This document shows positions 13,766-59,699 of a DNA stretch of 64,000 nucleotides, piece after piece. The notes below the pieces were generated by a model that did not search any database, had not been told where the DNA came from, and saw only the letters and a list, made by a program, of their open reading frames with translations. Position numbers and translations under genes: made by a program. Origin of the DNA: a virus. The stretch is from the IMG/VR virus record IMGVR_UViG_3300020122_000503, positions 1-64,000 of that record. The stretch is one strand, 5' to 3'. Every line of letters starts with the position of its first letter. Position 1 is the stretch's first letter.

Positions 13766-14854
13766 GTGCGCCCCTACACCGTGCAAGCCGGCGACAGTCC
13801 CGCAGGCCTCGCCGCAACACATGCCGGCTGTCCGAAGTGCGCACGAGACCTCGTCACTGCGAACCCTCACAAACCCACTGTCGTCTATCCGAACGGGTTC
13901 ATCTCGTTCGCAGAATTTCGTGCCGGCGAGAAAATCAATCTTCCCACGAAATGGTTCGACGGCACCCTCGACACTCGTCCTGCAAAATATTTTGCAGCTT
14001 TGCCTTACGCAGACGGTGTCACGCCCTCGACACTCGGTGACGCCGCTGTCGGCATTCTAGGAGACTTTTCAAATCTAGACGCGGCAACGACCGCTGTCAG
14101 TGTGCTCGACACGCTCGACGATGAGACGTTCACGCATGCCGCCGACAATGCGGCGAACCTCATCGACGGCGCCGTATCTGTAGCCGACGGTGACAGCGCC
14201 GCGGCTTCGTCGAGGTACGCGAGGGACACGCACACCGCTACCGCCGTCGCAAGGCAGCGTCTCGTCGACATGCGTGCCGCGCTCGACGTCGGTGATCAGG
14301 CGGGGGCGAAAGACGCTCGCTACGACGTTCGAAGCGCCCTCGTGAGCGCAGTCGGCAGTGCTCGGCTCTCCTTACAGGCGTTCTACGGCGGCTCGACGAC
14401 ACCTGCGCCCCAGCCACCGTCGTCGAATGTTCTAGTTTCGGCGGCACAAGCTGCCGCCAACGCCATCGGCGCGGACACTAGCTACTGCACGTCGGTCGCG
14501 AGCGCGGGAAGCGCGGTCAATTCAGCCGTTCATGCCTTTAAAACCGCCTGGAACGCTTCCGGACAGTCGCCGCTGCCGATCAACACCGGCAACTATGAGC
14601 AATCAGTCGCTAACGCGATCGCGAGCCTCGTCGGCACTGCTCCACCCGGATGCGGCTCGCGCGCAACACCTTCTCCGCAGCCCCAGCAGCCCACGCCGCA
14701 ACCTGTAAACCCGAATCTCGTCGCTGTCACCGTTCCCACGAAGCAGGGTCTCTCTAGAGGAGAGATTTTCGGGCTGAGCCTCATCGGCGCAACAGCTGCT
14801 GGCGGCGCGATCTACCTCGCAACACGAAAACCGAGAAAGCGACGCCGCGGATGA
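13766..14854 (+). CDS. LysM-type virion protein with C-terminal membrane anchor
   Basis: The 362-residue protein opens with YTVQAGDSPAGLAATHAG and KPTVVYPN, a LysM-like fold. A middle helical region follows, then a domain with SYCTSVASAGSAVNSAVHAFKTAW that also occurs in the 24.2 kb protein (NYCTSVSRVGSPVNTAVHNF). The C-terminus is a Pro/Gln linker, then LSRGEIFGLSLIGATAAGGA and a KPRKRRRG tail: a signature, helix and basic end. It probably sits in the virion membrane with LysM binding peptidoglycan. The GTG start is set by the LysM beginning. Its stop overlaps the transglutaminase-like gene. Confidence 0.7.
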   Translation: MRPYTVQAGDSPAGLAATHAGCPKCARDLVTANPHKPTVVYPNGFISFAEFRAGEKINLPTKWFDGTLDTRPAKYFAALPYADGVTPSTLGDAAVGILGDFSNLDAATTAVSVLDTLDDETFTHAADNAANLIDGAVSVADGDSAAASSRYARDTHTATAVARQRLVDMRAALDVGDQAGAKDARYDVRSALVSAVGSARLSLQAFYGGSTTPAPQPPSSNVLVSAAQAAANAIGADTSYCTSVASAGSAVNSAVHAFKTAWNASGQSPLPINTGNYEQSVANAIASLVGTAPPGCGSRATPSPQPQQPTPQPVNPNLVAVTVPTKQGLSRGEIFGLSLIGATAAGGAIYLATRKPRKRRRG

Positions 14855-16503: not shown

Positions 16504-16752
16504 TAGGTACGTCGGGGCTCCCGGCGTATGCACGCGCGCTCTGTTTGGTGCTCTAGCGATAGACGCGCTCGAACACTGAAAAGCGTCGACGTTCAATCGA
16601 GCGTAACTAACCGTTCATGTTGCAGTTTCCTGTTGCAACTGCATCAGCGCTAAGAGGCGCCTCGATACGTAACCACTGATCGAGGTCGCGCAACCATTTT
16701 CAGTTTCGTTGACACGTCAAATCCGTATTGAAAGCCTTCCGATTACCCCTTC
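16504..16752. other. Non-coding gap with hairpin and possible promoter
   Basis: About 250 bases without a convincing gene. A seven base pair stem TGCAGTT/AACTGCA lies at 16621-16643, and a palindromic GAGGCGCCTC about ten bases later. TTGACACGTC at 16709 gives a -35-like element 44 bases before the next start, but no good -10 follows. The gap separates the LysM/transglutaminase genes from the arginine-tract protein and the capsid candidates, so it probably holds the promoter of the virion block. Confidence 0.4.
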
Positions 16753-18468
16753 ATGGGTCTTTATGACGATCGGTTGGCAGACCTCAGTGAATCGCGGCGC
16801 AGTCCAAGCGCTCCGCGTCCGATGTTCCGACCGCGTCCGACTCCCGTCGTCACACGCGCTCCGAAGCGCAGAGCGATGCGTCCACAGTCTCTCCTCTTTA
16901 GCCGCAGCGCCGGCTGGACGGAGAACAAAGCCAAGGCGTGGGCGAAATCTCACGGCTTCAAGTCTGGGAAGGTGGACGTCACCGCCCAGAACATCCGAAT
17001 TCGGCAATTCGATCCGAAGGGATCAAAAACGTTTCGAACGGTTCCGTTCGGACAGGGCATTCGAGCCGTCGTGGCTCGAGAAGGATCGAAAACAATGACT
17101 CGAGTCTCAGCAAAACGCAGGCGCCGATCGAAGAAGTCCGCTCCCGCACCCAAGCGTCGTCATCGCAGGCGAGCGCGCAAGGTTCGCGCCGTTCAGACGC
17201 GGCGTCGTCGGCGCCGAGTGCGCGTCGAGGCGAAGGTAGCGACTCGTCGTCGGCGTCGCCGAGTGGCCGCGGCCCCGGTCGTGGCCGTCAGGCGCAGGCG
17301 TCGGCGCAAGGTGAGCGCGTGGCGCGGCGCTTCGAAGAGGCACGGACAAGCCGCTCGCAAGGGTTGGGCTCGCCGGAAGAAGCGTGGCACCGCCACTCGC
17401 AGGCGTCGGCGTCGGCATGTCGGCGCGGTAGCGGAAGCTCCGCGTAGGCGACGTCGCCGCAAGGTCGCGGCCCCTGTCGTGGCAACTCGCCGTCGCAGGC
17501 GCAGGCACAGCCGTCGCCGGACGCACGAAGCTCCGGGCTACGTCATGGAAGCCCGTAGGCATCACCGCCGACGTCGGCACCACATGCGCGCCTCGCGCGG
17601 TGGCGGCATGGGCCCGGCGGAGATGGCGCTCGCGACACTCTTCGGCAGCCTCGGATTCCTCGCTGCCGACGGGCTCGATCGCTTCCTCGCCACTTACGAT
17701 CCGAGCGCCGCCGACAAGCCGAAGGACAAGTTCGTGTCCGACGGTGCCGGTACGCTCGCGAACGTGCTCAACATCGGATCGCGTCCGGGCCTCGTTCGGC
17801 TCGGCGCGGGTGTCGGCGCAGTGGCGGCTCCTGCCATCGGTGCGTCGTTCATCAAGAACCCGATGGCGCGTGCGGCGCTCGAGGGCATGGCGCTCGGCGC
17901 GGGCATCTCGCTCGTCAATACGCTGTGGAGCTCCTTCGTGATGCCGATGATCGTCGGAACGAAGCCCGAGAACACGACGCCGGACAAGTTGCAGAAGAGC
18001 CCCATCGCTCGGATGTATCCGGCAGAAGTCTCGGCTGCGATCAACATGGCGGCGCACAAGGACGCAAGCGGAGCGACGACACCGGGCCCGTACACGGCCG
18101 CGGGCGTGCTCTCGGGACCGGACGTGGGTCCATTCGCGCTCTCGGGCGACAGTCCGTACCCAGACGCGAACGCAGCGCTCAGGCACGCAGCGGGAGTGAG
18201 CGGCGACAGCCCTTATCCCGACGCGAGCCAAGCGATTCGTCACGCGGCAGGTGTTTCGGGCGATAGCCCGTACCCCGACGCGCACTCTGCGCTTCGTAGA
18301 CAAGCCGGCGTGAGCTGGCAGCCGGGTGACGCGAGCGACGTCGGCCCGGGACCGCAAACGGGCGACTCGTGTGGATGCGTCGGCGACGACGGCGCCAAGT
18401 ACGCGGCGTTCCTTGGTGACGGACCGTCACCATCGGACCCGTTCGTCATCCTCCCTGGCGGTGGATGA
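16753..18468 (+). CDS. Arginine-tract, membrane-embedded putative genome-condensing protein
   Basis: The 571-residue protein has three parts. Residues 48-110 (AGWTENKAKAWAKSHGF.. and IRIRQFDPKG) resemble a small domain found in phage capsid-related proteins. Residues 118-280 contain at least six tracts of five to six arginines separated by Ala/Val linkers, as in protamine-like proteins. Residues 287-400 hold hydrophobic stretches (EMALATLFGSLGFLAADGL, LGAGVGAVAAPAIGASF, LVNTLWSSFVMPMIV). The C-terminus has three 19-residue repeats beginning SGDSPYPDA, then a CGCVGDDG segment. It could link a condensed genome to an inner membrane. It directly precedes the capsid candidates. Confidence 0.65.
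   Translation: MGLYDDRLADLSESRRSPSAPRPMFRPRPTPVVTRAPKRRAMRPQSLLFSRSAGWTENKAKAWAKSHGFKSGKVDVTAQNIRIRQFDPKGSKTFRTVPFGQGIRAVVAREGSKTMTRVSAKRRRRSKKSAPAPKRRHRRRARKVRAVQTRRRRRRVRVEAKVATRRRRRRVAAAPVVAVRRRRRRKVSAWRGASKRHGQAARKGWARRKKRGTATRRRRRRHVGAVAEAPRRRRRRKVAAPVVATRRRRRRHSRRRTHEAPGYVMEARRHHRRRRHHMRASRGGGMGPAEMALATLFGSLGFLAADGLDRFLATYDPSAADKPKDKFVSDGAGTLANVLNIGSRPGLVRLGAGVGAVAAPAIGASFIKNPMARAALEGMALGAGISLVNTLWSSFVMPMIVGTKPENTTPDKLQKSPIARMYPAEVSAAINMAAHKDASGATTPGPYTAAGVLSGPDVGPFALSGDSPYPDANAALRHAAGVSGDSPYPDASQAIRHAAGVSGDSPYPDAHSALRRQAGVSWQPGDASDVGPGPQTGDSCGCVGDDGAKYAAFLGDGPSPSDPFVILPGGG
18142..18312 (+). repeat. Three tandem 57-bp coding repeats (SGDSPYPDA..)
   Basis: Three in-frame units of 19 codons (18142-18198, 18199-18255, 18256-18312) encode SGDSPYPDA followed by a variable AALRHAAGV-type ending. 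They form the C-terminal region of the arginine-tract protein. Repeat number may vary between relatives. Confidence 0.9.
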
Positions 18469-18592: not shown

Positions 18593-19876
18593 ATGGCAAA
18601 GCAGAAGAGCAAAGGCAGCATCGTCGGCAGAGACATCATCACGTGGGGACGCGAGAAGGGTAAGCCCCAGCGCGTCAAGTTCGCCGAAGGTTTCGGCATG
18701 GTCGGCGACCCGAAAGCCGCGGAGAAGTGTCTCCGTTGCGGTTTCGGCAACATCCCCGTGATCGAAGAGGTCGTGTGGACGATTCCTCTCCCGCTCACGG
18801 CCGAGGAAGCACTCGCGACCCTCGGCGACACGGTGAACTTGCTCTCGGGTTCCTCGAGCGTGCCCGGTGTGGCGTCGATCGACTCGACGTTCCTCATCAA
18901 CGGCATTCTCCAGACGGACATCCTCGTGCAAGGCCTCGGCTGCCACATCTTCTGTGAGCCGATGAGCTTCTCGACGATCGGAAACGCCTGGGAGGCGCCT
19001 GCGCAAACGGTTGCGCCCCCGCCCTCGCCGGACGTGTTCACGGAGCTCGACCGCAACAACGGCGCGCTCGGCGCTGCGTTCGAGGGCACCGAACCGACTC
19101 AGACCATGAGCCCGGCGGTGTTCGAGTTCGGTGCACCGGTGTGGCGCGCGGGCTGGAACTTCATCAACGCCTACCAGTTCCAGTGGCGGACCTCGCAGCG
19201 TGAACTCGTTCTGAACGAGCTCGCGGCGGACGTGAGCTACTTCGGTAGCTTCGCGGACGCTCTCGCTGCCGGAACGTCGGAAGTTCCCATCATCGAGTAC
19301 GTCGCGCTCGTCAACGCAACGTACCGGTCGAAAGGATCGGCCACGATCTTCCTGCCTGTGAGCTTCCGGCGCGTGGGCAGCATCGACACTACCCCGGCTT
19401 CGGTGACCACCAACGTGGGCATCTTCCACCCGACGCGCGACTTCGATCTCGCGCCGGTGACCTGGGGCGGCCTCCGGTGGCAGGGCTACGGCTGCAAGGG
19501 CCAGATGTACCGTCCGATCGAGAGCCCGTGCTTCCTCGAGCGCGGTATCCCCATCGGCATGGGCTTCATCGTGCAGGACGCCGTGCACCAGGCGCAGATG
19601 CTCGAAGCGGTCACGATCAACAACGAGCCTCTCGGCGTGAACGTCTCGGTGGACGAGAACCTCTCGGACATCACGGCTACCGGCACGAACGTGATGCTCG
19701 AACAGACGATGGACACGAGCGCTCTCTCCGTCCCGCAGGTGGTCAACACCTCTCGGCAGGTCTTCAAGGGCGGTATCTTGAAGATCGGCATCAAGCTCAA
19801 GGGATGGGAGATGCCTGGTGGGTGGAAGGCGTATTGCATGCAGAACATCGTCTCGAGCCCGACGGCCGCGGGCTGA
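18593..19876 (+). CDS. Candidate major capsid protein (jelly-roll type?)
   Basis: This encodes 427 residues, rich in predicted beta strands and aromatic residues, without a signal peptide or membrane helix. A TAGGAGAAG ribosome site precedes ATG 18593 at good distance. An early Cys pair (CLRCGFGN) and later Cys residues occur. The size and beta-rich content fit a double jelly-roll capsid subunit, and its place between a hairpin and a terminator-like stem suggests high, separately tuned expression. There is no HK97-type prohead protease or scaffold nearby. The assignment is from context and composition; I cannot match it to a named family. Confidence 0.5.
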   Translation: MAKQKSKGSIVGRDIITWGREKGKPQRVKFAEGFGMVGDPKAAEKCLRCGFGNIPVIEEVVWTIPLPLTAEEALATLGDTVNLLSGSSSVPGVASIDSTFLINGILQTDILVQGLGCHIFCEPMSFSTIGNAWEAPAQTVAPPPSPDVFTELDRNNGALGAAFEGTEPTQTMSPAVFEFGAPVWRAGWNFINAYQFQWRTSQRELVLNELAADVSYFGSFADALAAGTSEVPIIEYVALVNATYRSKGSATIFLPVSFRRVGSIDTTPASVTTNVGIFHPTRDFDLAPVTWGGLRWQGYGCKGQMYRPIESPCFLERGIPIGMGFIVQDAVHQAQMLEAVTINNEPLGVNVSVDENLSDITATGTNVMLEQTMDTSALSVPQVVNTSRQVFKGGILKIGIKLKGWEMPGGWKAYCMQNIVSSPTAAG

Positions 19877-19948: not shown

Positions 19949-20551
19949 ATGCAGCCGAAGACCTATGACGACATCAAGTCGATCGCACTCTGGGCGCCGA
20001 AGATTGCCTTCGGCATGGTGGCGGGCGTCCCGCGCGTGCCGGTCGTTCTCGACATCCCACTCCAGTTCTCGTCGAGCACGGTGGACGCTCCACCGATCAT
20101 CGGGAGCTTCCAAAACAACCTCGCCCAGGACACGTTCATCGAGCGCATCGTGTTCAACCTGTTCCAGCAGAACAGCTACGCGGGCTCGCCGTTCCAGTCG
20201 ACGTACTTCAACCAGCTCAAGCAAAGCGGACAGACCGGCGTCGGCATCCGAATGGACGTCTACGGATCGCCGAAGTACTCGGTGAACGACACTTTCACCG
20301 ATCTCGGCAATCTCGCCGACGTGCTCGCGGTCACGTGGCCGCAAGGCTGGCCGCTCTACAAGCAAGAGAACGTGAAGGTACAAGCGATTCTTTTGCAGAC
20401 GCCCGTGAGCGTTCCCTACAACGTCAACATCTCCTTCCTCGGTTGGCAGTTCAACTCGAAGGATCTCGACGATCTCAGCGATCAAGATTGTCGGGTCCGT
20501 TTGCGAAAGCTCGGAATCGAAACCCCTGACCTCACTCTTCTCCTTGGATGA
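19949..20551 (+). CDS. Candidate small jelly-roll capsid/penton protein
   Basis: The 200-residue protein has strand-like segments VPVVLDIPLQFSSST, TFIERIVFNLFQ, GVGIRMDVYGSPKY and ENVKVQAILLQTPV, ending VPYNVNISFLGWQF, compatible with a single jelly-roll. Size (about 200) and neighbour (302 residues) recall the small/large capsid pair of sphaerolipo-like viruses, though sequence similarity is not evident to me. A good AGGAG precedes ATG 19949. The stop overlaps the next gene as ATGA. Confidence 0.5.
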   Translation: MQPKTYDDIKSIALWAPKIAFGMVAGVPRVPVVLDIPLQFSSSTVDAPPIIGSFQNNLAQDTFIERIVFNLFQQNSYAGSPFQSTYFNQLKQSGQTGVGIRMDVYGSPKYSVNDTFTDLGNLADVLAVTWPQGWPLYKQENVKVQAILLQTPVSVPYNVNISFLGWQFNSKDLDDLSDQDCRVRLRKLGIETPDLTLLLG

Positions 20552-21456
20552 CCAAGCGCGTCGATAACCTCATCCGTCTTCAGACGCACCCGGCGGGTGT
20601 GGGCGGCGCGCTTCGTTCTGTGCTTGCCAGGGGTCGCACCGAGCTCGTCACGAACGGCCCGAACAAAGAGTTCACGTTCATCGGCAGCGACCCGTGGGAT
20701 ACGAACGCCTACACCGGGCTCGTCGTGCCGGCGACGCCGAGCTCGGCGAATAGCGACGCGCGCTATCTCTTCCTTCTTGCGCGAGCAAGCTTTCGCTCCG
20801 GCGAACAGAGCCCGGAGAAGTGCGGCGTGCGTCTAGTCGGAATTCGGCAGTACGCCGAGCTCATCGCGAGGCTCCCGGCGCGCGAGGGCATACTCGATAG
20901 CGAATCGGGGCCTCCGACAGGTGCGACAGTCGTCTTCCGAAAGGAAATCACGACCCCGCTCTGGCATTTCCCCGACGGCAACATCTCGTGGCACGTGGTG
21001 ATCGTCAACGTCGTGTCGCGCGACATGCGGAACCCCGCAAACACGGACGGTTTCAACTACCAGGACTGCAACTCTCCGACGCTCCTCTATCAATCCGGAG
21101 CTCCAAGCGGCGTCGGATACGTTCCTCCGAACGGCGGACGCCCTTGGGGCACTCCTCTTGATGCGAGCCTCGGGAACATCCACGAGCTCCGCTACCCGTG
21201 GCGCTCGAACCAGAGCGAGCGCGCGCTCGACATCCCAATCCCGACGCCGTGTGACGTGCTCCTATTCGCAAGCGTTCGTCAGAACGATCCGGCGACGAAC
21301 CCGACGCTCGACAGCGACGCTGCGGCGAGCTGCGCGATCTTTGGAGCGCTCTCTCCGGAAGATCAGTTCATGGTCGCATTCAACGACTTCGTGCAATACG
21401 GCACGATCGCCGGTGCGCTCGTGTTCGACGAGAACCTCGGGGAGGACGTACCATGA
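20548..21456 (+). CDS. Candidate large capsid-associated protein
   Basis: This encodes 302 residues, beta-rich, with an N-terminal region KEFTFIGSDPWDTNAYTGLV and core strands RYLFLLARASF, ISWHVVIVNVV and ELRYPWRSNQSERALDIPI. It is coupled to the preceding 200-residue protein by ATGA, suggesting the two assemble in a fixed ratio. No membrane helix is present. No family is recognised; a capsid, spike-base or penton role is inferred. Confidence 0.5.
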   Translation: MTKRVDNLIRLQTHPAGVGGALRSVLARGRTELVTNGPNKEFTFIGSDPWDTNAYTGLVVPATPSSANSDARYLFLLARASFRSGEQSPEKCGVRLVGIRQYAELIARLPAREGILDSESGPPTGATVVFRKEITTPLWHFPDGNISWHVVIVNVVSRDMRNPANTDGFNYQDCNSPTLLYQSGAPSGVGYVPPNGGRPWGTPLDASLGNIHELRYPWRSNQSERALDIPIPTPCDVLLFASVRQNDPATNPTLDSDAAASCAIFGALSPEDQFMVAFNDFVQYGTIAGALVFDENLGEDVP

Positions 21457-21689: not shown

Positions 21690-21910
21690 GTCGTCTCGCA
21701 GTAGGAATTGGCGGCGGTCTCGGAGCCGTAGCCGCCGCTGGCGCAATCGAAGGAAGCCTCGAGAAAGCTTCAAGAACGAACGAAGACTCACTCCTAGGAA
21801 TGCTCGGAATGCTGTTCGGCGGAATCGCTGGCGCCGCTATCGGCGGCGGTTGCCCCGACTGCAAAACATCAGGCACTGTCAGCGGACAGCCGCCACTGAG
21901 GTTTCCATGA
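21686..21910 (+). CDS. Small glycine-zipper membrane protein (74 aa)
   Basis: It starts with VGIGGGLGAVAAAGAIEG and has a second helix LGMLGMLFGGIAGAAIGG, then CPDCKTSGTVSGQPPLRFP. The CxxC is unique among its neighbours and could bind metal or form a disulfide. The ATG overlaps the previous stop, and the terminal LRFP again derives from the next gene's ribosome site and start. Similar in layout to the proteins on both sides. Confidence 0.7.
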   Translation: MSRLAVGIGGGLGAVAAAGAIEGSLEKASRTNEDSLLGMLGMLFGGIAGAAIGGGCPDCKTSGTVSGQPPLRFP

Positions 21911-22569
21911 CTCCCGGTGGTGCGGCGCTTTTGACCGGAGCGGCCAGCGTGTTTGGCGGCTTTCTTGGCGCGTCTATCGGCGAAGAGTTCGAGCGCAGGT
22001 CACGCGGCGTACGCAACGGAGCTGGGTGGGGTGCGGTGATCGGAACGTTCACGTTCGGGGCTCTCGCCGGAGCGAAAGCGGCTACGGACGACTCTAAACC
22101 TACCGGCACTCTCTCGGGCCCGCGTATCGGAGTTCTTGGAGCGACGGCTAAGGCGATGTGGTTCGCTCCCGGTGATGTTTGGTACATCGACTTCGAGTCC
22201 AATCTCCCGGTCACCACAGAACAGTTCTTCAAACTAGTCGGAAGTGTGCAAGCGGAAGCTCCGAAGATAGTCCCGGGAGTTGAAACAGCCACTTGGTTGT
22301 CGTTTCAACCTATCGATCAGCAACACTTCCGAGCGATCGTGAAGTGGGGTGTTGCAGGCAACTACCTCAACAAAGGCGACGCTGAAACAATCGACGGCAT
22401 CAGATTCAGAGTGGCTTCTGCCGGTCCGTACTCCGCGCCAACGGACGAACAGAAAATCTCGACCGGCAAGATCGTTGCCGTGTCGGCAATAAGCGCACTC
22501 GGTCTTGGTGGCATCTTTCTCGCGGCGACAAGCGGGAAGAAAAAGAAGAATCGGAGGCGCTCACGATGA
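21907..22569 (+). CDS. Membrane protein with soluble domain and C-terminal LSTG-type anchor
   Basis: The 220-residue protein has a hydrophobic N-terminal region (GAALLTGAASVFGGFLGAS, GAVIGTFTFGALAG) and KPTGTLSGPRIG, the tail motif of its neighbours. It then has a soluble domain with VWYIDFESNLPVTTEQFFKL and WLSFQPIDQQHFRAIV. The C-terminus is QKISTGKIVAVSAISALGLG, a helix and KKKKNRRRSR: a signature, TM helix and basic cluster. It looks like a fusion of a glycine-zipper unit with a surface domain. Start at 21907 is set by the ATGA overlap. Confidence 0.7.
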   Translation: MTPGGAALLTGAASVFGGFLGASIGEEFERRSRGVRNGAGWGAVIGTFTFGALAGAKAATDDSKPTGTLSGPRIGVLGATAKAMWFAPGDVWYIDFESNLPVTTEQFFKLVGSVQAEAPKIVPGVETATWLSFQPIDQQHFRAIVKWGVAGNYLNKGDAETIDGIRFRVASAGPYSAPTDEQKISTGKIVAVSAISALGLGGIFLAATSGKKKKNRRRSR

Positions 22570-23281: not shown

Positions 23282-23493
23282 ACCAAGTAGTAGCAAGCGG
23301 GCTCGGCGGTTTGGTCGCGGGCGCCATTGGCGCAGCGGTCGCGAACTCGTCCGACAGTTACCCTGTGCTCAAGGGCGCGCTCGTCGTCGGCGCTATTGAC
23401 GCGGTTCTCACGGCCGTAGTGATCGGCGCATCCGAAAAACCAACCGGGACTCTTTCCGGGCCGCCGCGCCCTAGACCGTTGAGGTTTCCATGA
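23278..23493 (+). CDS. Small glycine-zipper membrane protein (71 aa)
   Basis: Two helices (ASGLGGLVAGAIGAAVANS and GALVVGAIDAVLTAVVIGAS) precede KPTGTLSGPPRPRPLRFP, the same tail as in the upstream paralogues. Overlaps the previous stop and ends in the same start-site motif. Part of the paralogous series at 21.4-23.5 kb. Confidence 0.7.
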   Translation: MNQVVASGLGGLVAGAIGAAVANSSDSYPVLKGALVVGAIDAVLTAVVIGASEKPTGTLSGPPRPRPLRFP

Positions 23494-24179
23494 CGACTCC
23501 CGCGCAAGCATACGGTCACCCCGACTTCGTCACGGACGTTCCCGTTCAAGGACCGACCGACGAAGGCATCCGCGCGCATGACTGCTGGTTTCGTCAAAAT
23601 GTGTTACCGGCGCGCCCCGCGTGCGTCGATTGCGAAGGACCAATACCAATGTGGGCTCAAACCAAGGGACTGCTCGGCAACAGTGTTTCGTTCGGTGGGA
23701 GAGGCGCACTCGGCTTCGCGCTCCGAGGCCCGAGCGATCCGGAAATATGGACGAAGCTCTCCGTTGCTCAGCAGCAGTGGATCGTCGACACGCTCACGAA
23801 GCTCGACAGCATCATCCGTCAGCAGACGGGCACGAGCTGCCAGTCGTGGGGCCCATCGATCACCGCTGCCGGCGGATGCTTTCAGATGTGGTTCAACGCG
23901 AACAAAATGGGGCTCACGAAGGCCGACGGGTCGCCGCTCGTCCTTCGCACCGACCGCGTTTGGGACCAAGACTCGCTCGACGCGCTTCGCACTGTCGCAG
24001 CGATGGATCCGAAGGATTTCCCGACCCCGTATCCGGGGACGACGCTCCCCGGTCCTGCAACCGAAGAAAAGAAGAAACTCTCGACCGGCGAAATGGTCGG
24101 GATCGCTACTGCCGGCGCCGCCGTCATCGGCGGGATCGGCTACCTCGCCACTCGCAAGAAGAGTCGAAGGAGACGCTGA
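23490..24179 (+). CDS. Soluble protein with C-terminal LSTG-type membrane anchor
   Basis: The 229-residue protein has an N-terminal domain with Cys residues (HDCWFRQNV, ACVDCEGP), then WTKLSVAQQQWIVDTLTKL and SCQSWGPSITAAGGCFQMWF. The C-terminus reads KKKLSTGEMVGIATAGAAVIGG, a helix, ATRKKSRRRR: a signature, TM and polybasic end. The first gene beyond the glycine-zipper run, it is coupled by the last junction motif. A cell-wall-related role is suggested by the next gene but not shown. Confidence 0.65.
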   Translation: MTTPAQAYGHPDFVTDVPVQGPTDEGIRAHDCWFRQNVLPARPACVDCEGPIPMWAQTKGLLGNSVSFGGRGALGFALRGPSDPEIWTKLSVAQQQWIVDTLTKLDSIIRQQTGTSCQSWGPSITAAGGCFQMWFNANKMGLTKADGSPLVLRTDRVWDQDSLDALRTVAAMDPKDFPTPYPGTTLPGPATEEKKKLSTGEMVGIATAGAAVIGGIGYLATRKKSRRRR

Positions 24180-24182
24180 ACG

Positions 24183-25622
24183 ATGTTGTACCAAATTAAA
24201 AAAGGCGACTCGCCGCGGCAGATCGCTAGGCGATACGGCGTGTCGTTCGATAGGCTCATCGCGGCGAACGCGCACAAGCCTACGACCGTCGTTGCCGGGC
24301 AACGCACTTGGCGATCAATCCTTCCAAGGGAAACGATCGTCGTTCCAGTCGGCGGCACGATCGGCGCACTCGGCGACGCTGCGAGCGACGCCATCAACGC
24401 GCTCATTGCCGCCGGTGGTCCGTGTCTCCAGGCGAACGTCGCTCTCGTTTGCGCCGCTCAGCGAGCTCTCGGGTTCACACCCGGCGCTGGAGTCGACGGA
24501 AAATGGGGCACCAAGGACGAGGCCGCGGCGGCACAAGCCGGTTTCGCCATTCCCGCGTGTAGCCCCCGCCCCTCGTGGTGGGCCCCGAAAGGTTCATCAA
24601 ACTGCGGCACGATGGCGACTTCAGTTCCGAGTCCGTCGGGCGGTGGAGCTCTTGCGGGAGCCGCAGCTGCGGCGCTCGCCGCCCTGAACGCCGATCCGAA
24701 CTACTGCACGAGCGTCAGCCGCGTAGGAAGCCCCGTGAACACGGCCGTGCACAACTTCAAGGCCGCGTGGAACTCGGCGAATCCGTCGAATCCCGTGCCG
24801 ATCGGCACCGGTAAGTACGAGCCGGTCGTCGCGAACGCGCTTTCGACGGCGCTCGGCGGCGTGACGGTGCCGCCGGGATGCGGTGCCGGCGCAGCGCCTC
24901 CAACCCCGTTCAATCCGCCCCCGCCTCCGCCGCCCCCTCCGCCCCCGCCTCCGAATCCGGTGACGCCGTCCGCGCTACCAGCGGCCGTGCAGGCACTTCT
25001 GAGCGCGAACCCGTGCGATCCGGCGAACGTCTCTCTCGTTTGCGCAGCGCAACTCGCTCTCGGTTTCAGACCCGGAGCCGGAGTCGACGGCAAATGGGGT
25101 GACAAGGACGCGGCAGCAACGGGCGGCGCCATTCCGGCGTGCAGCCCTCGCCCGTCTTGGTGGACACCAAAGGGACAGAGCAATTGCACGGGTGGTATGG
25201 CACCTCCGCCGCCTCCGCCACCCCCACCTCCCCCGCCACCGCCCCCGCCTCCAGGGAAAACGTGTCCGGCAGGCACGGTCTACAATCCGATTTCGGGGCA
25301 GTGCGAAACGGGAAAGGCGCCACCTCCGCCGCCTCCACCGCCGCCAGGGAAAACGTGTCCCGCGGGCACGACATACAACCCGACAACGGGACAGTGCGAA
25401 TCCCCCGGCGGACAAATCACTCCGCCCGAAGAGAAGAAGGGCCTCTCAACCGGCGCCATCGTAGCCGGCGCAGTCGGCGCAGCGGCTCTCGTCGGTCTCA
25501 TCGCCGTCGCGATGACCGGCAAGAAAGGGCACCGCGGCTCGCGCGGTAAGCGAGGCCCGAGCGGGCATCGCAAGTCAACGCATCACAAGGCGCACAAGAG
25601 CCACGGGAAGAGAAAGCGGTAA
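24183..25622 (+). CDS. LysM and peptidoglycan-binding repeat protein with C-terminal anchor
   Basis: The 479-residue protein starts with a LysM (LYQIKKGDSPRQIARRYGVS, RETIVVP). It has two copies of a unit with LVCAAQRALGFTPGAGVDGK..W (about 90 and 285), typical of PG-binding-1 (VDGKWG), each with CSPRPSWW. Between them lies the SYCTS-type domain shared with the 13.8 kb protein. Poly-proline linkers with two GKTCPAGTxYNPxxGQCE units follow. It ends KKGLSTGAIVAGAVGAAAL, a helix and a long Lys/Arg/His tail. It is likely a virion spike that binds peptidoglycan at entry. Confidence 0.75.
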   Translation: MLYQIKKGDSPRQIARRYGVSFDRLIAANAHKPTTVVAGQRTWRSILPRETIVVPVGGTIGALGDAASDAINALIAAGGPCLQANVALVCAAQRALGFTPGAGVDGKWGTKDEAAAAQAGFAIPACSPRPSWWAPKGSSNCGTMATSVPSPSGGGALAGAAAAALAALNADPNYCTSVSRVGSPVNTAVHNFKAAWNSANPSNPVPIGTGKYEPVVANALSTALGGVTVPPGCGAGAAPPTPFNPPPPPPPPPPPPPNPVTPSALPAAVQALLSANPCDPANVSLVCAAQLALGFRPGAGVDGKWGDKDAAATGGAIPACSPRPSWWTPKGQSNCTGGMAPPPPPPPPPPPPPPPPPGKTCPAGTVYNPISGQCETGKAPPPPPPPPPGKTCPAGTTYNPTTGQCESPGGQITPPEEKKGLSTGAIVAGAVGAAALVGLIAVAMTGKKGHRGSRGKRGPSGHRKSTHHKAHKSHGKRKR

Positions 25623-38010: not shown

Positions 38011-38550
38011 GTGAAACGCCCATGGAAAGCCGTCGCAATCGGTAGCGCTGTGCTCGGGGCGATCGGGATCGGAGTGCTCGCAAGACGAAAGCCCGCGCCG
38101 CCTAAGCGCGTGGCACTCATCGGCGACTCCTACGCTGTCGGGCTCGGGCCCGAGCTCGACAAGCTCATTCCCGACTTTCGCGCAGAGGGGCACGTGGGCA
38201 CGACCACCTGGCAGTGGGCTAACCACAACGACGAGTGCGGCACGTGCGGCGACTGGCTCACGGCGTTCAAGCCAAACATCGTCCTAGTGAGCCTTGGCGT
38301 GAACGACGGAACAGCGCCGAACCTAGGGCACTACCAAACCATCGTGCGCGGGCTTCAAGGGATCGGCGCGCGTGTCATATGGATCGAGCCGCCAGCAGCG
38401 GTGAGCGCTCCTGCCGCGCGCAGAGCCATCGCCTCGCTCGGCGTACAAACGGTGCCGGCGACGACGACCCCGCTCGCGTCCGACGGACTACACCCGAAAA
38501 GCTACGGGCCATGGAGCCAGGAAATAGCCGGTGTGGTGCGCAATGCCTGA
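38011..38550 (+). CDS. SGNH hydrolase-like protein with N-terminal membrane helix
   Basis: From GTG 38011 the 179-residue protein has a short N-terminal helix (WKAVAIGSAVLGAIGIGVLA). An SGNH fold follows: VALIGDSYAVGLG (Ser nucleophile in GDS), VLVSLGVNDGT (the N in block III) and SDGLHPKSYGPW (Asp/His of block V). Such enzymes remove acyl or acetyl groups from polysaccharides. It may act on capsule or peptidoglycan at entry. It overlaps the lysozyme-like gene. Confidence 0.75.
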   Translation: MKRPWKAVAIGSAVLGAIGIGVLARRKPAPPKRVALIGDSYAVGLGPELDKLIPDFRAEGHVGTTTWQWANHNDECGTCGDWLTAFKPNIVLVSLGVNDGTAPNLGHYQTIVRGLQGIGARVIWIEPPAAVSAPAARRAIASLGVQTVPATTTPLASDGLHPKSYGPWSQEIAGVVRNA

Positions 38551-39196
38551 CTCCTGCGCGCTCAACGTCGCCTGCACGCCGAACGCATCGGTTGCGTACA
38601 ACTACTTCATCGGCAAGGGCCTGCGCGACTATCAGGCCGCAGCCGTAGTCGGAAACCTCCAACAGGAATCATTTCCGGAGATCAACACGCGGCTTGAGGT
38701 GCTCGAAAAGAAGAACCAGAAGATGAGCCGCGGCATCGCCATGTGGCAGCCGACTCGTTGGCAGAACCTTCTCACGTTCGCCGGCACGCGAGATCCGTGG
38801 GCACTTGGAACCCAACTCGACTTTCTCTGGTACGAGCTCGAATCCTCCTCGATGCTCGCGGCGCTTCAGGCGTCGCCGTCGCTCGAAGACGCGGTTTTGA
38901 TGTTCCAAAACCAATTCGAGCGACCGGATCCGGTATGGGCTGCAACCGATCGGCGCATTTGCTACGCGAGGAACGCGCTTCAGTTTTGCGCGCTCGTCAC
39001 GCCGCCCGAACCGGCGTCTAAACGTGGCGGCGTCGTTGTCGCCACCGTGGGCGTCTTAGCGTTCGTCACTGCCGCAGGCTATGGCGCGTACAAGTTACTC
39101 TCTCGCACGCCTCGCCCGATCCCGCGACGGTTACCTCCAGAACCCGAGCCTGAACCTGTCTACTACCCACCGCCGAACCCGATGAGGCGATTTTGA
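38543..39196 (+). CDS. Phage-type lysozyme with C-terminal membrane helix
   Basis: The 217-residue protein begins with an N-terminal catalytic domain: AYNYFIGKGLRDYQAAAVVG, NLQQESF (Glu), GIAMWQPTRWQNLLTFAG and TQLDFLWYEL. It matches the phage tail-lysozyme family (phage_lysozyme2). After a linker, RGGVVVATVGVLAFVTAAGY is a TM helix, then a Pro-rich basic tail. Membrane anchorage of a muralytic enzyme fits a virion entry device. ATG 38543 overlaps the SGNH stop. Confidence 0.75.
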   Translation: MPDSCALNVACTPNASVAYNYFIGKGLRDYQAAAVVGNLQQESFPEINTRLEVLEKKNQKMSRGIAMWQPTRWQNLLTFAGTRDPWALGTQLDFLWYELESSSMLAALQASPSLEDAVLMFQNQFERPDPVWAATDRRICYARNALQFCALVTPPEPASKRGGVVVATVGVLAFVTAAGYGAYKLLSRTPRPIPRRLPPEPEPEPVYYPPPNPMRRF

Positions 39197-42456: not shown

Positions 42457-42791
42457 GGCAAAATCCCCTTCGCCTTCTCGCGCATCTCCGCCTGACGCTC
42501 CGGCGAGAGCTTCGAAAAGAGGTTCTCGACCTTCTCGTCTGGCGCTGCGCGCTTTCGAAGATCGGCCGTCTGCCAGATGTCTTTGATCTTCGCGCGCTGC
42601 TTCTCGGTGAACTCGAGCGTGTCGTCGTGCTGCTGCCGCACGCTCTTGATGAAGTTCTTCTCCCAGTCAGAAAAGTGAATACCACCTCGCTCGGGCGGCA
42701 CATCGACGAGCTCTTCGAGATCGGCGAGTTGCTTCAACGCTACGGTGTCTTTGCGGAGCTCGAGGACGGTCGGGTGGTTGTCGATGGTCAT
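42444..42791 (-). CDS. Hypothetical helical protein
   Basis: This encodes 115 residues, charged and helical, with a conserved-looking middle (HFSDWEKNFIKSVRQQHDDT, FTEKQRAKIKDIWQ). It is typical of small phage DNA-metabolism proteins of the kind found with helicases. ATG 42791 overlaps the stop of the HerA-like ATPase (ATGA). Role unknown. Confidence 0.55.
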   Translation of the reverse strand: MTIDNHPTVLELRKDTVALKQLADLEELVDVPPERGGIHFSDWEKNFIKSVRQQHDDTLEFTEKQRAKIKDIWQTADLRKRAAPDEKVENLFSKLSPERQAEMREKAKGILPWEK

Positions 42792-44522
42792 TCTGAAAGC
42801 TCCTCTGAAAGCCGAAGCTCCCCACGCCCTTCGACGAGCTCCAACGTTCGAAGTCTCGACAGGTACGTCGAGAACGTTCCGCTCCTGTGACTGATCCCTG
42901 CGGCTTCTCCGAGTTCTTCGTTCGTTAGCGGTCCTTGTACGTCGGCAAGAACGGCGAGCATGCGACTCGCCCCGCCCTTGAGCTCACGAAGCCAGTACTC
43001 GACCAGGTCTCGCCCTTCTGGGAGCGGGTTCCAGTGTCCGAGCGCCAAGAGCCCCGCATCCGTTATCGACCGCTTCTCTCCAACGTCGACGATCCATCCT
43101 TCTGAGCGCCCACGCGACAGGTACGTCGAGAAAGTACCCGAACGCGACGACAGGCCTGCGCGTACGCCGAGCTGTCGATTGGTGAGACCCTGCGGGCGCT
43201 GCGCGAGCGCGATCATCATCCGACGAAGGCCACCGCCTACGGGCGACGCACCGTTCGTCGTACCGTTCGACTTCTGGTATTCGGTAATCGCCGCCTGAGT
43301 CTTAGGCCCAACAATCACCGGCTTGGCAGGCACGCCTACGACGCGCTGGAACGTAGACACGGCCGAGCTACTTTTGGCTTTCGCCAGCGTCTTCCTCAAG
43401 TCTTCGTTGTGAATTACCTCTTCGTCGACGAGCACGTTGATTGCTGCCTCTTCCGTGGCACGGAACGCACGCTTCAACTCGTCGGACAGACGGCGGCGTA
43501 TGCGTTTCCAATCAACACGCGCCGGCACCTCGTGGATCTTGTTTTTAACGACGATCACTTGTTTGGCTGCGGTCTTCTTCGCTAGCCCCTTCTCGAGCTC
43601 GGCGATCCGCTTTCGAAGTTCCTTCGGGTCTTCAGCCTTCGAGCGCTCGATGGTTGCGGCCATCTCCTTCTCGAGCCCTCTCAGATCAATCGGTCGGAGC
43701 GCCTTCCGTTTGAACTTCTTGTCCCCGACCTTCGGCGTTCGCGACGTGTCGAGGCTCTCGATCGGCAAGATGTGCACGACCTTCGAGACCTTTAGCCACT
43801 GCGGGCTCCACACGTGCGGCGCACCGACCTCGAGCCGAGGAAGAATGTCCTCGAGCTTCTCTTCGGCACCCTTGTCGTTGAGCCAGTACTGAAGCGCCTT
43901 CCGCTCGTGCGGGCCGTTCATCTGAAACGCGAAGACGCACTCGGCTTGGTTGAGCGCCTTCTTCGAGATCTCCTGCGGACGCTGTGAAATGAAGCTCATT
44001 CCGATGCCGTGAGGACGCCCCTGCTTCGCGAGCCGCTGAAAACTCGTGAAGCATTTGCTCTTCGCCTCGTTGCTGGTTTTCGGGGACGAAGTCCTGGCAC
44101 TCCTCGAGCACCAGGTGCACGGCGCTCGGCGAGCTCTTCTTTCGAAAGAAGAACCGCTCTGCAAACGCTGTCGCGAACCGCGTGCGTTCGGCGTCGCGCA
44201 TCTGGCTCACATCGAGCACCACGCTCGTTCGCTTGTCGACGATCACGTCGGCAACGAGAGCGCCGCCCGTAGGCTCGAGAGGGATGTCGCCGTAAAGACC
44301 TCCGAACACAGGGATGTTGAACGCCTTCTTCCCGAGTCGGAGACCCGCCCACGCACACGAGCCGTCGAGGATCACGACCTGCACGTTCGCATGGAGCATC
44401 TGCTCGACGAAACGTTTGCAACCGAAAGTCTTTCCGCTCCCCGTCCGACCGAGCCACGTGATCTTCTGTGTGACGGCATCTAGCGGCAGGTTGAGCTCAC
44501 GGGCGATTCGAAACGATCTCAT
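42788..44522 (-). CDS. HerA/FtsK-type ATPase with tandem winged-helix domains (frameshifted)
   Basis: The product is about 577 residues if joined. The N-terminal half has a Walker A (LGRTGSGKTF), then VVLDVSQM and a Walker B (VHLVLEECQDF). The frame continues after 44043 with FQRLAKQGRPHGIGMSFISQRP (sensor) and ECVFAFQMNGPHERKAL, so the two halves are one gene separated by one extra T in a T-run (44040-44043). The C-terminus has two copies of a winged-helix unit with SSRSGTFSTYLSR/SHRSGTFSTYLSR. HerA-type ATPases package DNA in internal-membrane viruses; translocase or helicase roles are also possible. Confidence 0.75.
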
Positions 44523-44956
44523 GATGCGTCTTTCTTTTCTGTTTGTCTGCGAGCCATCTCTTGAGCAGCCAAGTCGGTGATGGCTCCGAGCGGATCCGCC
44601 AAGAGCCCGAGTATTGTCTTCGTCGCGTCGGGCAAGTCACTCGCATAGAGCTCCCTTCGAAATCGGCGGCGTTCTTCGAGCTCCGTCAGAAGCGCCGTGC
44701 CGCGTGCTATCAGCTTGTCGAAGCGCCGCGCTTGACGAGCCTTCATCCTGGCTTTGCGTACGCGCTTGGCGCGGCTCACGGGACCGCCTTCCAGGTCACG
44801 TACACGTTGCGATCGTCGAAGGTGACGGTCGCACACCGGGAGCTCTTTCTTCAGCGCGCGCCAAAGCTGCTTCGGCTTTGGGTGGTTGATGGTGACCTTC
44901 GGCTGCGTCGCGAGGGCGATGCGGACTTGGGTAGTGAGATCGCGGAGGGAGATCAT
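44519..44956 (-). CDS. Hypothetical basic protein
   Basis: The 145-residue protein has an N-terminal helix, an Arg/Lys-rich middle (SRAKRVRKARMKARQARRFD) and a helical C-terminus (TKTILGLLADPLGAITDLAAQ). The basic patch suggests nucleic-acid binding. It is coupled to the ATPase gene by ATGA, so it may be its partner. No family is recognised. Confidence 0.55.
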   Translation of the reverse strand: MISLRDLTTQVRIALATQPKVTINHPKPKQLWRALKKELPVCDRHLRRSQRVRDLEGGPVSRAKRVRKARMKARQARRFDKLIARGTALLTELEERRRFRRELYASDLPDATKTILGLLADPLGAITDLAAQEMARRQTEKKDAS

Positions 44957-53377: not shown

Positions 53378-55768
53378 TCACCACGAGATGCGGCCGACGA
53401 ACCACGGGGTGCCGCCCCCTTGCTTGGGTTTGTGGTCGAACCGTCGCCCCCCGACGTTCTTCTTTCGGTACTTCCGGAGCTGCATGCTGACGAGCTTCGT
53501 CGTGAGCTTGTCGGGCGTGCATTCGCAGAGCTCAGCGAGCGCTTCTTTGAGTGCGGCGTGGGCGAACGCCCCGACGTGCATCTCTGAGAGCACGTCGGAA
53601 ACGAGCATGGGTTTGCCGAGTTTCTCCCATTCGATGAGCACGCGCTCTAGAACCCCCAGCTCCGAGTCGCCGCTCTCGACGAGCTCTTTGCGGCCCTCGA
53701 TCGGATCCGGCATGCCCGCCCACACGAGCGCGCCCCTCACGATTCGGCTCCATTGCTCGAAGGAGCCCCACGACGTCAGATTTTGGTTGGGACAACCTGC
53801 GGCGAAGTATCCGCGAAGCACGGTGAGGACGGCGCTCGCGAGCTTCGGTCGTTCGCGGTGTACGTGTGGAAGGATCGGATCGTATTTGAAACCGGTTCGA
53901 TGCTCGGGGTGCTCGAGTGTGGTCTCTAGTTGAACGTGAAGCGCGCGACCGACGAGCTCGTTCGACAAGATGAGGTTTTGCGCTGTCACGAGCCAGAGTG
54001 CTCGCATCGGCATCGCCACCATTTCGCTGACTCCGAGTCGGCGTTCTAGAACGGCCATGCTCGTGATTACGCCTGCTAGCGCTGAAGAATCGAGAGCTCC
54101 TTCGACGTTGTCGAGAAGGACGATAGGGTCGCCGCTGATTGCGAGCGACAAGATCCGTTTTCGCATCTCTTCTTCGTTCGTTTTCGCCGTTCTAGGAAGA
54201 GATCTACCGGAATAAATTTCTCCGATGATGTCTGCGAGATAGGTTGCTCCGACTCGGCGCGCGTTCTTGTCGAGAACACCGAACGGCACGCAGCCGTCGA
54301 TTGTCGGGCGAGCGAACGGTGTAAAGAGCAAAGCCATCCACGCGGAGAAGTGTTCCGAGCTCACAAATGGAAAATCTTGAACGACGTCGTACAAAGTCGC
54401 GATGGCCGTCGTCGCGTCGTCCAAAGTAGGATTGGACGGGATTGGTGGAAAGTTGACGTTCGGTTCGTAGAAAAGTCCCGTCGTGCGATCGTAGCCGGGT
54501 GTGTCGAGCACTGTTCCGTCTGGACGAAGCACCGGGCACTCGGTGATGCCTTCCAAAAACTTGACCCCGGGCCATTCTCCGCGGCAATGAAGCTCCGAGA
54601 GAGGATCGTCCGGAACCCCGCACGAGACTAAAGAGGAATCACCGGTGCTCGTCGTTTTCCAACGCTGAAACGCGCAAGCGTGCGAGATGAGCCCTCTGGT
54701 TCTCGCTTTCGACATCTCGGAGATGATTGGAGCGTTTGCTTCTCGGCGGATCTCGTCCTCTTCTTTGCTCTTATTGGGGTCGCGAAGGATCTGCACGAGC
54801 TTCCAGCCTCTGTTGAACACGTTCGGCAAAGCCGCAAGCGCCGGGAGCATCTGATCTGCGACTTCGAGCTCGTCGAAGCCGACGATGACGGCTACGCGGT
54901 CGCCCGTCGGTTCTTTTCTGGCCGGGAGCCATTTGCGAGCGCGTGTGATGAGCTTCTTCCCGCCGACGCCGCCCCCGAGCGGCCGATCGGCGATGAGTTC
55001 GATGACGCGGTTCCAGCCGGTGACAGGTTCGCCCGAGTCGAGCTTTTCTTTCGTTCCACGAACGGTCGCGGCGCGTTTCTGGGCGGCGTCCGAGCCACCA
55101 ACCCATGCCACGAGAAGAACGAATAGCTCGGTGTGTTCGACGGGCCATCCGTCTCGAAGAAGTCCGCCCCCGAGCGCGAGGCAGAAGTCGTGACGTCCTT
55201 TTTTGGGGAAGTACCGAGCAAGAAGACACGCCGCTGCGAGTACGCCAACGGCGGCTTCTAAGACGGTTCGTTCGATGCGCGGGATCTGCTCGGGGTTGGC
55301 GCCGTCTTCGAAGTCGATGAATTCGCCGCTGACGTGGTGGCTTCCAGGGAACACGGTCTGAACGCCGCCCGTCCGGAGCTCGACGATCGTTTTGCCGGCG
55401 CCGTCGATGTTCGGATCTTCGTACTTGATGTGCTTCGGGACGTCAGAGAAATAGAGCCAGTGCGACGCGCGCTTCGATGCGCGTCCGAACCGCCCCGGTG
55501 TTGGCGGTAAAAGATGCGGTGCGAGGTAGAGCGCTTCGGGACAATCGATGTCGACGTCGCAAAGGCCTTTCGATGGTTCGCCGAGAATGATCCCGATGTT
55601 TTGAGGGACGCCGTTGAAGTAGTGCGGCGCGGTCTCGTGCGTGATCCGTAGGTTCTTCCAGTCCGGGATCGTCGGTCCTTTTTCTCGATACGGAACGGGG
55701 ATTGGGCACAGCCCTAGGTTGATGTAGTCGATCGCGAGATCGAAAACCGAGGGCGGTGATGACGACAC
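53378..55768 (-). CDS. Primase-polymerase with degenerate helicase domain
   Basis: The 796-residue protein starts with a primase-polymerase domain (about 10-190): LGLCPIPVPYREKGPTIPDW, CDVDIDCPEAL (two acidic metal ligands), RASKRASHWLYFS and IVELRTGGVQTVFPGSHH. From about 420 a helicase-like part has PTLDDATTAIATLYD and a P-loop region DKNARRVGATYLADIIG, then LLDNVEGAL (Walker B). The Walker A lysine is Ala here (codon at 54245-54247), so ATP hydrolysis may be lost. The C-terminus carries helicase-type helical bundles. It starts DNA synthesis for the phage genome. Confidence 0.8.
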   Translation of the reverse strand: MSSSPPSVFDLAIDYINLGLCPIPVPYREKGPTIPDWKNLRITHETAPHYFNGVPQNIGIILGEPSKGLCDVDIDCPEALYLAPHLLPPTPGRFGRASKRASHWLYFSDVPKHIKYEDPNIDGAGKTIVELRTGGVQTVFPGSHHVSGEFIDFEDGANPEQIPRIERTVLEAAVGVLAAACLLARYFPKKGRHDFCLALGGGLLRDGWPVEHTELFVLLVAWVGGSDAAQKRAATVRGTKEKLDSGEPVTGWNRVIELIADRPLGGGVGGKKLITRARKWLPARKEPTGDRVAVIVGFDELEVADQMLPALAALPNVFNRGWKLVQILRDPNKSKEEDEIRREANAPIISEMSKARTRGLISHACAFQRWKTTSTGDSSLVSCGVPDDPLSELHCRGEWPGVKFLEGITECPVLRPDGTVLDTPGYDRTTGLFYEPNVNFPPIPSNPTLDDATTAIATLYDVVQDFPFVSSEHFSAWMALLFTPFARPTIDGCVPFGVLDKNARRVGATYLADIIGEIYSGRSLPRTAKTNEEEMRKRILSLAISGDPIVLLDNVEGALDSSALAGVITSMAVLERRLGVSEMVAMPMRALWLVTAQNLILSNELVGRALHVQLETTLEHPEHRTGFKYDPILPHVHRERPKLASAVLTVLRGYFAAGCPNQNLTSWGSFEQWSRIVRGALVWAGMPDPIEGRKELVESGDSELGVLERVLIEWEKLGKPMLVSDVLSEMHVGAFAHAALKEALAELCECTPDKLTTKLVSMQLRKYRKKNVGGRRFDHKPKQGGGTPWFVGRISW

Positions 55769-55873
55769 GCGGGGAGGGCCTCCAAGAACGTGATCGGTCG
55801 AGGATTCGCGAAGGCGCGAAAATCTCGGAACACGGACCCTAGACCTTTCGTTCCGTCCTCGTCAAGAGGGGGT

Positions 55874-55902
55874 TTGCAACGTCCGTAAACATTTGTTATG
55901 GT
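55874..55902 (+). promoter_or_regulatory. Sigma70-like promoter for the 56-62 kb block
   Basis: TTGCAA (55874-55879), 17 bases, TATGGT (55897-55902) with an upstream TG, fits an extended -10 promoter. The start would fall near 55909, only a few bases before ATG 55912, so the first mRNA would be nearly leaderless. It lies in the divergent gap 55769-55911 between the primase and this block. Confidence 0.6.
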
Positions 55903-55911
55903 CTGCCTTCG

Positions 55912-56094
55912 ATGGCCCGAGAAAAAGAAACCGACGTCATGGTTGCCACGCGAGTGAGCAAGTCGCTCTACGTCAAGATCTTGAAACGCCAACGGGAGTT
56001 GAAGAAGCTCACCGGCATCGAACCCAGCGTTAGTGCCGTCTTACGCGCGATGATTGCAGAAGCGGCGTCTGGTCGTCGTCATCAGGCGGCGTGA
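55912..56094 (+). CDS. Ribbon-helix-helix DNA-binding protein
   Basis: The 60-residue protein has TDVMVATRVSKSLYVKILKR and GIEPSVSAVLRAMIAEAASG, the ribbon and two helices of CopG-type repressors. It is the first gene after a near-leaderless promoter and might repress it or the divergent replication promoter. The stop overlaps the next gene (GTGA). Confidence 0.75.
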   Translation: MAREKETDVMVATRVSKSLYVKILKRQRELKKLTGIEPSVSAVLRAMIAEAASGRRHQAA

Positions 56095-56546
56095 ACGTGA
56101 AGCGAAAAAGTATTTACTTTATTCAACGAGGCGTCGACGGACCAATCAAAATAGGAGTCGCTGCCGATCCTTATGAACGTCTTTCGTCACTTCAGACAGC
56201 TTCTCCGGAGAAGTTGATTTTGCTTGGGTGTGTTCGTGGTTCCGAGACCGGTATGCATCAAAAATTTCGAAAGCACCGCATTTCTGGAGAGTGGTTCAAG
56301 CCGCACAAAGACGTTCTTCGATTTGTCCGTTTGCGTACTTTTGTGCCATCGCGCCGACGTGCTGGCACAATAATCAAGGTTCTGGTTCCGGATCATCTTC
56401 AGGATCCTATTGAACAAGAACGCAAACGTATGAGTTTTGCGAGAGAAAAAGAAACTAAGGCGAGTGCGGTCGTCCGAGCGTGTCTCGAGGAGTGCCTGCT
56501 CGGTAAACCCCGGCCTGTTCTCTCTGTCTCTAGAGAAAAAACTTGA
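56091..56546 (+). CDS. T5orf172/GIY-YIG-type nuclease with C-terminal helices
   Basis: The 151-residue protein starts IYFIQRGVDGPIKIGVAADP and YERLSSLQTASPEKLILLG, then GMHQKFRKHRISGEWFKP, a T5orf172 (GIY-YIG) pattern. The C-terminus MSFAREKETKASAVVRACLE resembles the helical half of a ribbon-helix-helix protein. Probably a DNA-binding homing-type nuclease. GTG 56091 overlaps the previous stop; a GTG two codons later is the alternative. Confidence 0.7.
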   Translation: MNVKRKSIYFIQRGVDGPIKIGVAADPYERLSSLQTASPEKLILLGCVRGSETGMHQKFRKHRISGEWFKPHKDVLRFVRLRTFVPSRRRAGTIIKVLVPDHLQDPIEQERKRMSFAREKETKASAVVRACLEECLLGKPRPVLSVSREKT

Positions 56547-56579
56547 CGGTTTGATTGGTGTGAGCGAGATTGCTGCGAG

Positions 56580-58040: not shown

Positions 58041-58106
58041 ATTGAAACATCGGACGTTCGTCGAACAGTCGGATGCACGAGCATCAATCAAAAAGGAAAA
58101 AGGTAA

Positions 58107-58760: not shown

Positions 58761-58764
58761 ACGA

Positions 58765-59111: not shown

Positions 59112-59126
59112 GCCGCAGGAGAAAAA

Positions 59127-59693: not shown

Positions 59694-59699
59694 AAATTC

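Follow-up and report, generated by a model that had tools for sequence, protein, structure and literature searches.

Protamine-like virion proteins, which are Arg-rich and have a putative role in genome condensation, occur in the Adenoviridae, Baculoviridae and Asfarviridae (PMC3281028). These are small proteins of eukaryotic viruses and carry no membrane domain. For packaged phage DNA, the accepted view is neutralisation by ions and polyamines instead of basic proteins, and evidence for a sizeable contribution of basic proteins in phages with dsDNA genomes is lacking (PMC3281028). In SH1-type viruses (Sphaerolipoviridae, Halopanivirales), VP12 is a major virion membrane protein with two TM helices and a pI of 10.4 in PH1 (PMC3622292, PMC6414509), and its gene lies directly before two major capsid genes. 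Small membrane-type virion proteins of 34-138 aa that lack a protamine-like region are also found in PM2 (P7 and P4, both K/R-rich), PRD1 (P20) and P23-77 (VP15), with P7, P20 and VP15 likewise encoded directly before the capsid gene(s). Finally, the T7 and P22 ejection proteins (gp14-gp16) are virion proteins that join DNA binding to membrane-inserting helices (PMC8954989).

Here we describe P0001, a 571-aa protein in which a protamine-like region and a membrane-type domain occur together. It is this combination that is new; each kind is already known. The gene (16753..18468, open from the ATG at 16753) lies in a window of 64,000 nucleotides, positions 1 to 64,000 of the 73,506-base IMG/VR virus record IMGVR_UViG_3300020122_000503; coordinates below are those of the window, in which P0001, its promoter-like element, the three candidate structural genes and the gene at 24183..25622 are on the plus strand. 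P0001 resembles VP12 in being basic and in its place before candidate capsid genes, whereas VP12 has only 94 aa and neither an Arg-rich region nor an N-terminal domain. More generally, P0001 is 4 to 17 times longer than the small membrane-type proteins of SH1, PM2, PRD1 and P23-77, and hhalign comparisons with the VP12/P7/P20-type proteins gave probabilities of ~1% or less, with no sequence similarity. The T7 and P22 ejection proteins belong to tailed viruses and have no sequence or fold match to P0001; we know of no polyarginine region in them. With protamine-like condensing proteins P0001 appears, from composition and structure prediction, to share an Arg-rich, largely disordered chain with clustered Arg, but it is not a small protein made of little but a basic chain, as it has extra domains and its hydrophobic domain is conserved.

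Using the 427-aa protein encoded downstream of P0001 as a query, we retrieved 27 further viral records from IMG/VR at 66-75% identity; the records derive from environmental DNA and are mostly 54-125 kb in size. Separate searches with a neighbouring 200-aa protein (27 loci) and with the P0001 hydrophobic domain (26 loci) returned the same virus set. A P0001 homologue lies immediately 5' of the 427-aa gene in all 26 relatives with sequence there, followed by genes for the 200-aa protein and a 302-aa protein; the one record without a P0001 match begins at the candidate capsid gene. The earlier note, made from the letters of the window, had proposed looking for the same domain order in other genomes, and these 26 relatives display it, which also led us to reject a spurious ORF. 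P0001 and the cluster proteins had no relative among 50,697 phage records, 72,556 plasmids and GTDB genomes, and no match in Pfam, PHROGs or PDB. For P0001, no homologue of known function was found, the fold had no Foldseek match with E < 0.1 in PDB or BFVD, and the searches run (Pfam, PHROGs, PDB, hhalign, Foldseek) established membership in no named family. Literature searches found no description of the lineage and a search for hosts via proviruses in GTDB genomes found none; the hosts are probably bacteria. P0001 marks a virus lineage (the 27 IMG/VR records and the window's own) whose structural-type proteins match nothing in the searched libraries, and this unclassified lineage is of as much interest as the single protein.

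The 427-aa protein (18593..19876) is the most conserved product of the cluster (65-77% identity in 22 aligned relatives), and 'candidate major capsid protein' is a putative label, given because no other gene of this conserved cluster, structural in appearance, is conserved so well. Its AlphaFold model had a pLDDT of 36, profile searches returned no PDB, phage or GTDB match, and the candidate capsid proteins had no hhalign match to proteins of SH1, PM2, PRD1 or P23-77, so that each of these routes to a capsid identification was negative, also for a single or double jelly roll of the Varidnaviria kind; PF09018 gave no match either, in a profile run without a positive control. The second and third candidate structural proteins, of 200 aa (19949..20551; 61-75% identity) and 302 aa (20548..21456; 46-72%), are present in 27/27 relatives, and the 200-aa protein had no match outside the lineage. 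The earlier note's placing of the gene immediately before capsid candidates is borne out as to position (26/26 relatives with sequence there); 'capsid' and 'virion' are still putative.

Homologues of P0001 range from 442 to 1205 aa, and the family alignment reads, in order, N-terminal MGLYDDRLADLSE, a 68-aa domain, the polycationic region with a helix motif, and the hydrophobic domain. After these come an LYPAEV motif, a repeat tail rich in Pro and Gly and, at the C-terminus, a CGC whose two Cys are invariant. The 68-aa domain (residues 45-112, 16885..17088) is optional: it is missing from L003, L006, L015, L022 and L028, and where present it has a mean identity of 72% and the pattern QSLLFxR..WTxxKAKAWAKSHGY..VDVTDQYIRIRQFDPKG..RT..FGxGIRAVVARE. 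An AlphaFold model of P0001 built with 20 sequences weakly predicts a small alpha/beta domain here (pLDDT ~59-73), and confidence is low outside this domain and the helices described below. No match to residues 45-112 was found in the databases searched; Pfam Ish1 was dropped at E = 0.03-0.19, below cut-off, and a presumed likeness to a domain of tailed-phage head proteins was unsupported, with E = 0.3 or worse. Beyond the hydrophobic domain come the conserved (L/M)YPAEVxAxIN motif (18013..18045), a tail of 69-623 aa in the relatives, which in P0001 holds three 19-residue repeats SGDSPYPDAxxAxRxxAGV (18142..18312, starting at residues 464, 483 and 502), and a CGCxGDxxxxxxFLG-type end (residues 540-571, 18370..18468) in which both Cys are invariant across 20 aligned sequences. 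Much of this layout had been read from the window beforehand, namely at least six runs of five to six Arg in residues 118-280, hydrophobic stretches at 287-400 and a repeat tail, and each of these was recovered: six R6 runs, helices spanning 288-402 and the three copies from residue 464. The 68-aa domain and the helix motif between the Arg blocks had escaped that reading.

The polycationic region (residues 113-284, 17089..17604) carries a net charge of +75. Its six R6 runs lie at residues 150-155, 165-170, 180-185, 216-221, 231-236 and 246-251, that is, in two blocks of three with a spacing of exactly 15 residues within each block, and R4 runs are found at 122-125 and 272-275. Within residues 118-280 there are 64 Arg and 12 Lys but only 4 acidic residues, and when this segment was shuffled 20,000 times the mean was 0.85 runs of R>=5 and six were never reached. 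The runs are encoded by mixed Arg codons, and at aligned Arg-Arg positions in the relatives the codon differs in 490/695 cases, which argues that Arg is maintained at the protein level and rules out a simple-sequence or DNA microsatellite artefact. Sequence and run length drift nonetheless: aligned homologues keep 38-50% K+R over 124-266 residues, yet L013, L016/17/26, L020, L021 and L025 have no run of R>=4, and the conserved feature is thus the K+R content, not the long Arg runs. Between the two Arg blocks sits a motif, AWxGxxxGHxxAAKKGWxRRK (residues 189-209, 17317..17379), present in nearly all homologues; the remaining ORF families of these genomes lack it, and it had no match among the phage records. 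AlphaFold predicts helices in the region only at 145-168 and, over this motif, at 194-213; pLDDT is otherwise mostly <50, and the Arg region is predicted to be disordered. In composition, this region is of protamine type, and it would most likely bind nucleic acid. By calculation, the charge on ~400-800 copies of P0001 would balance 25-50% of the phosphates in the 73.5-kb record.

The hydrophobic domain (residues 285-405, 121 residues, 17605..17967) differs from the polycationic region in being of fixed length, 117-120 aa across aligned members. Three helices are predicted with confidence at 288-314, 347-366 and 370-402 (pLDDT ~80-92); they are Gly/Ala-rich, 20-33 residues long and poor in charges, and an invariant set of residues (D, R, Y, P, F, G, G, N, N, P, R) surrounds the loop between helices 1 and 2. 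No recognisable soluble fold emerged for residues 287-400, a finding that would have spoken against the earlier note. Its call for TM prediction met a mixed outcome: the helices are confident but the insertion energies are marginal, with calculated dG values mostly between +0.6 and +2.9 kcal/mol, none <+1.0 in the window's P0001; the formula used was checked on a single TM and a single soluble control, with sensible results for both. Kyte-Doolittle peaks reach ~1.1-1.9. On these predictions, membrane insertion of the domain is possible, and the domain most likely contacts a membrane.

A promoter-like element, TTGAC-N17/18-RARYCT (16709..16737), lies before the P0001 gene, where a regulatory gap had been suspected. 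TTGAC is conserved at -41 to -61 in 15/21 sequences (null mean 0.8, maximum 5), and 3 more of the 21 have TGGACG at its position. A generic sigma-70 scan did not call the element. A Shine-Dalgarno site was seen in only 1/21 sequences and not before the window's gene. The leader between element and start is short, and the full pattern has one other match in the window, at 60327.

Membrane-type features also recur in the surrounding module. Up to four further proteins per genome have a membrane anchor at the C-terminus that finishes in a polybasic stretch, a unit that consists of LSTGxI, ~20 hydrophobic residues and YLATRKxRRRR and that occurs in at least eight genomes (1-4 proteins each); in the window, such proteins are encoded at 13766-14854, 21850-22569, 23490-24179 and 24183-25622. 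The last of these has a LysM-like N-terminus and places a membrane helix beside a 36-residue, histone-like basic tail (LSTGAI-TM-GKKGHRGSRGKRG...HGKRKR). Because these LSTGxI-TM-RKxRRRR anchors recur in the neighbours, a membrane helix joined to a basic tail appears to be a theme of the module, and the TM segments are clearer in these proteins than in P0001. The LSTGxI unit looks like a tail anchor or sorting signal, and these viruses could use it as a membrane-targeting tag of their own.

With respect to particle type, profiles for the terminase, portal and HK97-fold capsid expected of Caudoviricetes (PF03237, PF04860 and PF05065) found nothing in 22 records, with positive controls; this negative covers those three profiles, and other terminase or portal families and very divergent versions lie outside it. 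PF04665 gave no match either (controls positive), nor did a Walker A pattern find a packaging ATPase with a P-loop common to all the genomes. A HerA/DUF87 ATPase, of the FtsK/HerA class that serves for packaging in Varidnaviria, is present in 8/22 records. We rejected it as proof of a tailless virus, both for this limited occurrence and because a similar HerA occurs in the tailed phage MW202482 beside that phage's own terminase and portal. In the window, the HerA-type gene (42788-44636, minus strand) is divided between frames, with Walker A GRTGSGKT in the N-terminal half and the C-terminal half in another frame; in L032 and L033 it forms a single intact frame.

From the features, conservation, gene order and promoter element observed, and from the predicted helices and Arg-region disorder, we infer that P0001 binds DNA, associates with a membrane, is present in the virion and acts as a linker. 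It is best read as an assembly or core protein specific to this lineage that associates with a membrane and binds nucleic acid. It would be a structural or assembly protein found in this lineage alone and transcribed first in a capsid-type gene cluster. Its disordered half, in which Arg clusters recur at 15-residue intervals on both sides of a single conserved helix, may bind a polyanion as protamines do, most likely the viral DNA, and its Gly/Ala-rich three-helix domain would sit in or against a lipid membrane, or insert at some stage. In assembly, packaging or entry, P0001 could thereby connect nucleic acid with the surface of a membrane or shell. We favour a linker of nucleic acid to membrane or shell as the best single reading, tentatively and with slightly less than even confidence. 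It is favoured because K+R content is kept while the hydrophobic domain keeps its length and invariant residues, and because the hydrophobic domain, the 427-aa protein and the 200-aa protein, searched independently, co-occur in constant order. The TTGAC element, the confident helices, the basic-tail anchor theme and the failure of the terminase, portal and HK97 profiles to find a match point the same way, as do the small membrane-type protein genes placed before the capsid genes of SH1, PM2, PRD1 and P23-77, the net charge of +91 N-terminal to the first hydrophobic helix, and the copy number computed above.

Several observations count against such a linker: the marginal insertion energies, the failure to find a homologue of known function or a fold for the candidate capsid protein, the presence of the HerA-type ATPase, a pointer to a tailless virus, in only 8/22 records and in a tailed phage as well, and the positive-inside rule, which would put the Arg region on the wrong side of a PRD1-type vesicle. 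With +91 ahead of the first helix the N-terminus should stay cytosolic, and the cytosolic face of the membrane would become the capsid-facing side of the vesicle in PRD1-type assembly, so that the Arg region of P0001 would lie on the capsid side and not on the DNA side. In that pathway, viral membrane proteins first go into the host cytoplasmic membrane, and capsid proteins then assemble along the viral membrane (PMC4267777). The genome-to-inner-membrane tether envisaged in the earlier note has the protamine-like composition, the three helices, the strict gene position and the anchored basic proteins of the module in its favour, but the topology opposes a tether on the lumen side; it would fit better with outward budding, or if insertion of the helices were delayed until packaging is over or the virus enters a cell.

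The topology problem is avoided if P0001 is an ejection (pilot) protein, packaged with the DNA via its basic region, whose helices insert into the host envelope after adsorption and form or line a DNA entry path, like the internal proteins of T7 and P22. Marginal hydrophobicity would suit a protein that stays soluble inside the particle until its later insertion. In T7, several TM helices are predicted for gp14-like proteins, while gp16 both enters membranes and binds DNA of any sequence (PMC8954989). These genomes also encode peptidoglycan-active and LysM-type proteins, among them a phage tail lysozyme domain at 38531-39196 (E = 1.6e-21). However, neither in sequence nor in fold did P0001 match an ejection protein, portal and terminase were not found by the profiles in the 22 records, and a lead position before capsid candidates is not diagnostic; we regard this explanation as unlikely, though well worth weighing.

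To the same low degree, the topology can be taken at face value, with P0001 acting as a cement or scaffold between capsid and membrane: inserted in the host membrane with its basic N-terminus cytosolic, it would have acidic capsid surfaces or anionic lipid heads, not DNA, as the target of its Arg clusters, and would bring shell and membrane together. By the positive-inside rule, the N-terminus would face the capsid in PRD1-type assembly, the P0001 gene comes first before the capsid candidates, and in HCIV-1 and HHIV-2 the capsomers are positioned by the membrane and membrane-proximal proteins, VP12 being a major two-TM membrane protein (PMC6414509). Yet ~170 residues with a net charge of +75 exceed the need of a docking site, and an internal membrane is only hypothetical here.

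The marginal TM energies, the Gly/Ala-rich helices and the polar loop that joins helices 1 and 2 and is highly conserved would also be compatible with a soluble, oligomerising hydrophobic core, making P0001 a DNA-condensing core or scaffold protein of a lipid-free virus. We consider this improbable, given helices of 20-33 residues with few charges and the clearer TM segments of the neighbours. A non-structural host-takeover protein acting early on the host nucleoid or membrane, for which one could cite the gene's own promoter element and the ability of polycationic proteins to compact nucleoids, is very hard to credit, as every relative keeps the gene strictly linked to the best-conserved genes of structural type.

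If the linker reading is confirmed, a P0001-type protein would be an exception to the neutralisation of phage genomes without basic proteins and would offer a handle on genome-membrane contact. A bolder and doubtful extension is that these are large viruses of prokaryotes without a tail but with lipid, a lineage not described before, and that they build protamine-like polycations into membrane proteins. The membrane itself would then carry the charge-neutralising coat of the genome, through P0001 and the LSTG-anchored proteins with their basic tails. We know of no prokaryotic virus with polycations built into its membrane proteins.

Outside the structural cluster, a replication module (prim-pol, helicase, exonuclease/polymerase; 53378-64000 and L029) is mostly 65-89% identical to that of the relatives G001 and G021 and is unlike or missing in most others; since the structural cluster is common to all relatives and the replication module to few, this suggests modular exchange of replication genes. 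Finally, a transglutaminase-like protein encoded upstream of P0001 (14851-16503) is split by a Hint/LAGLIDADG intein, across which L004, L005, L014 and L027 match, while most other relatives match the flanks only.
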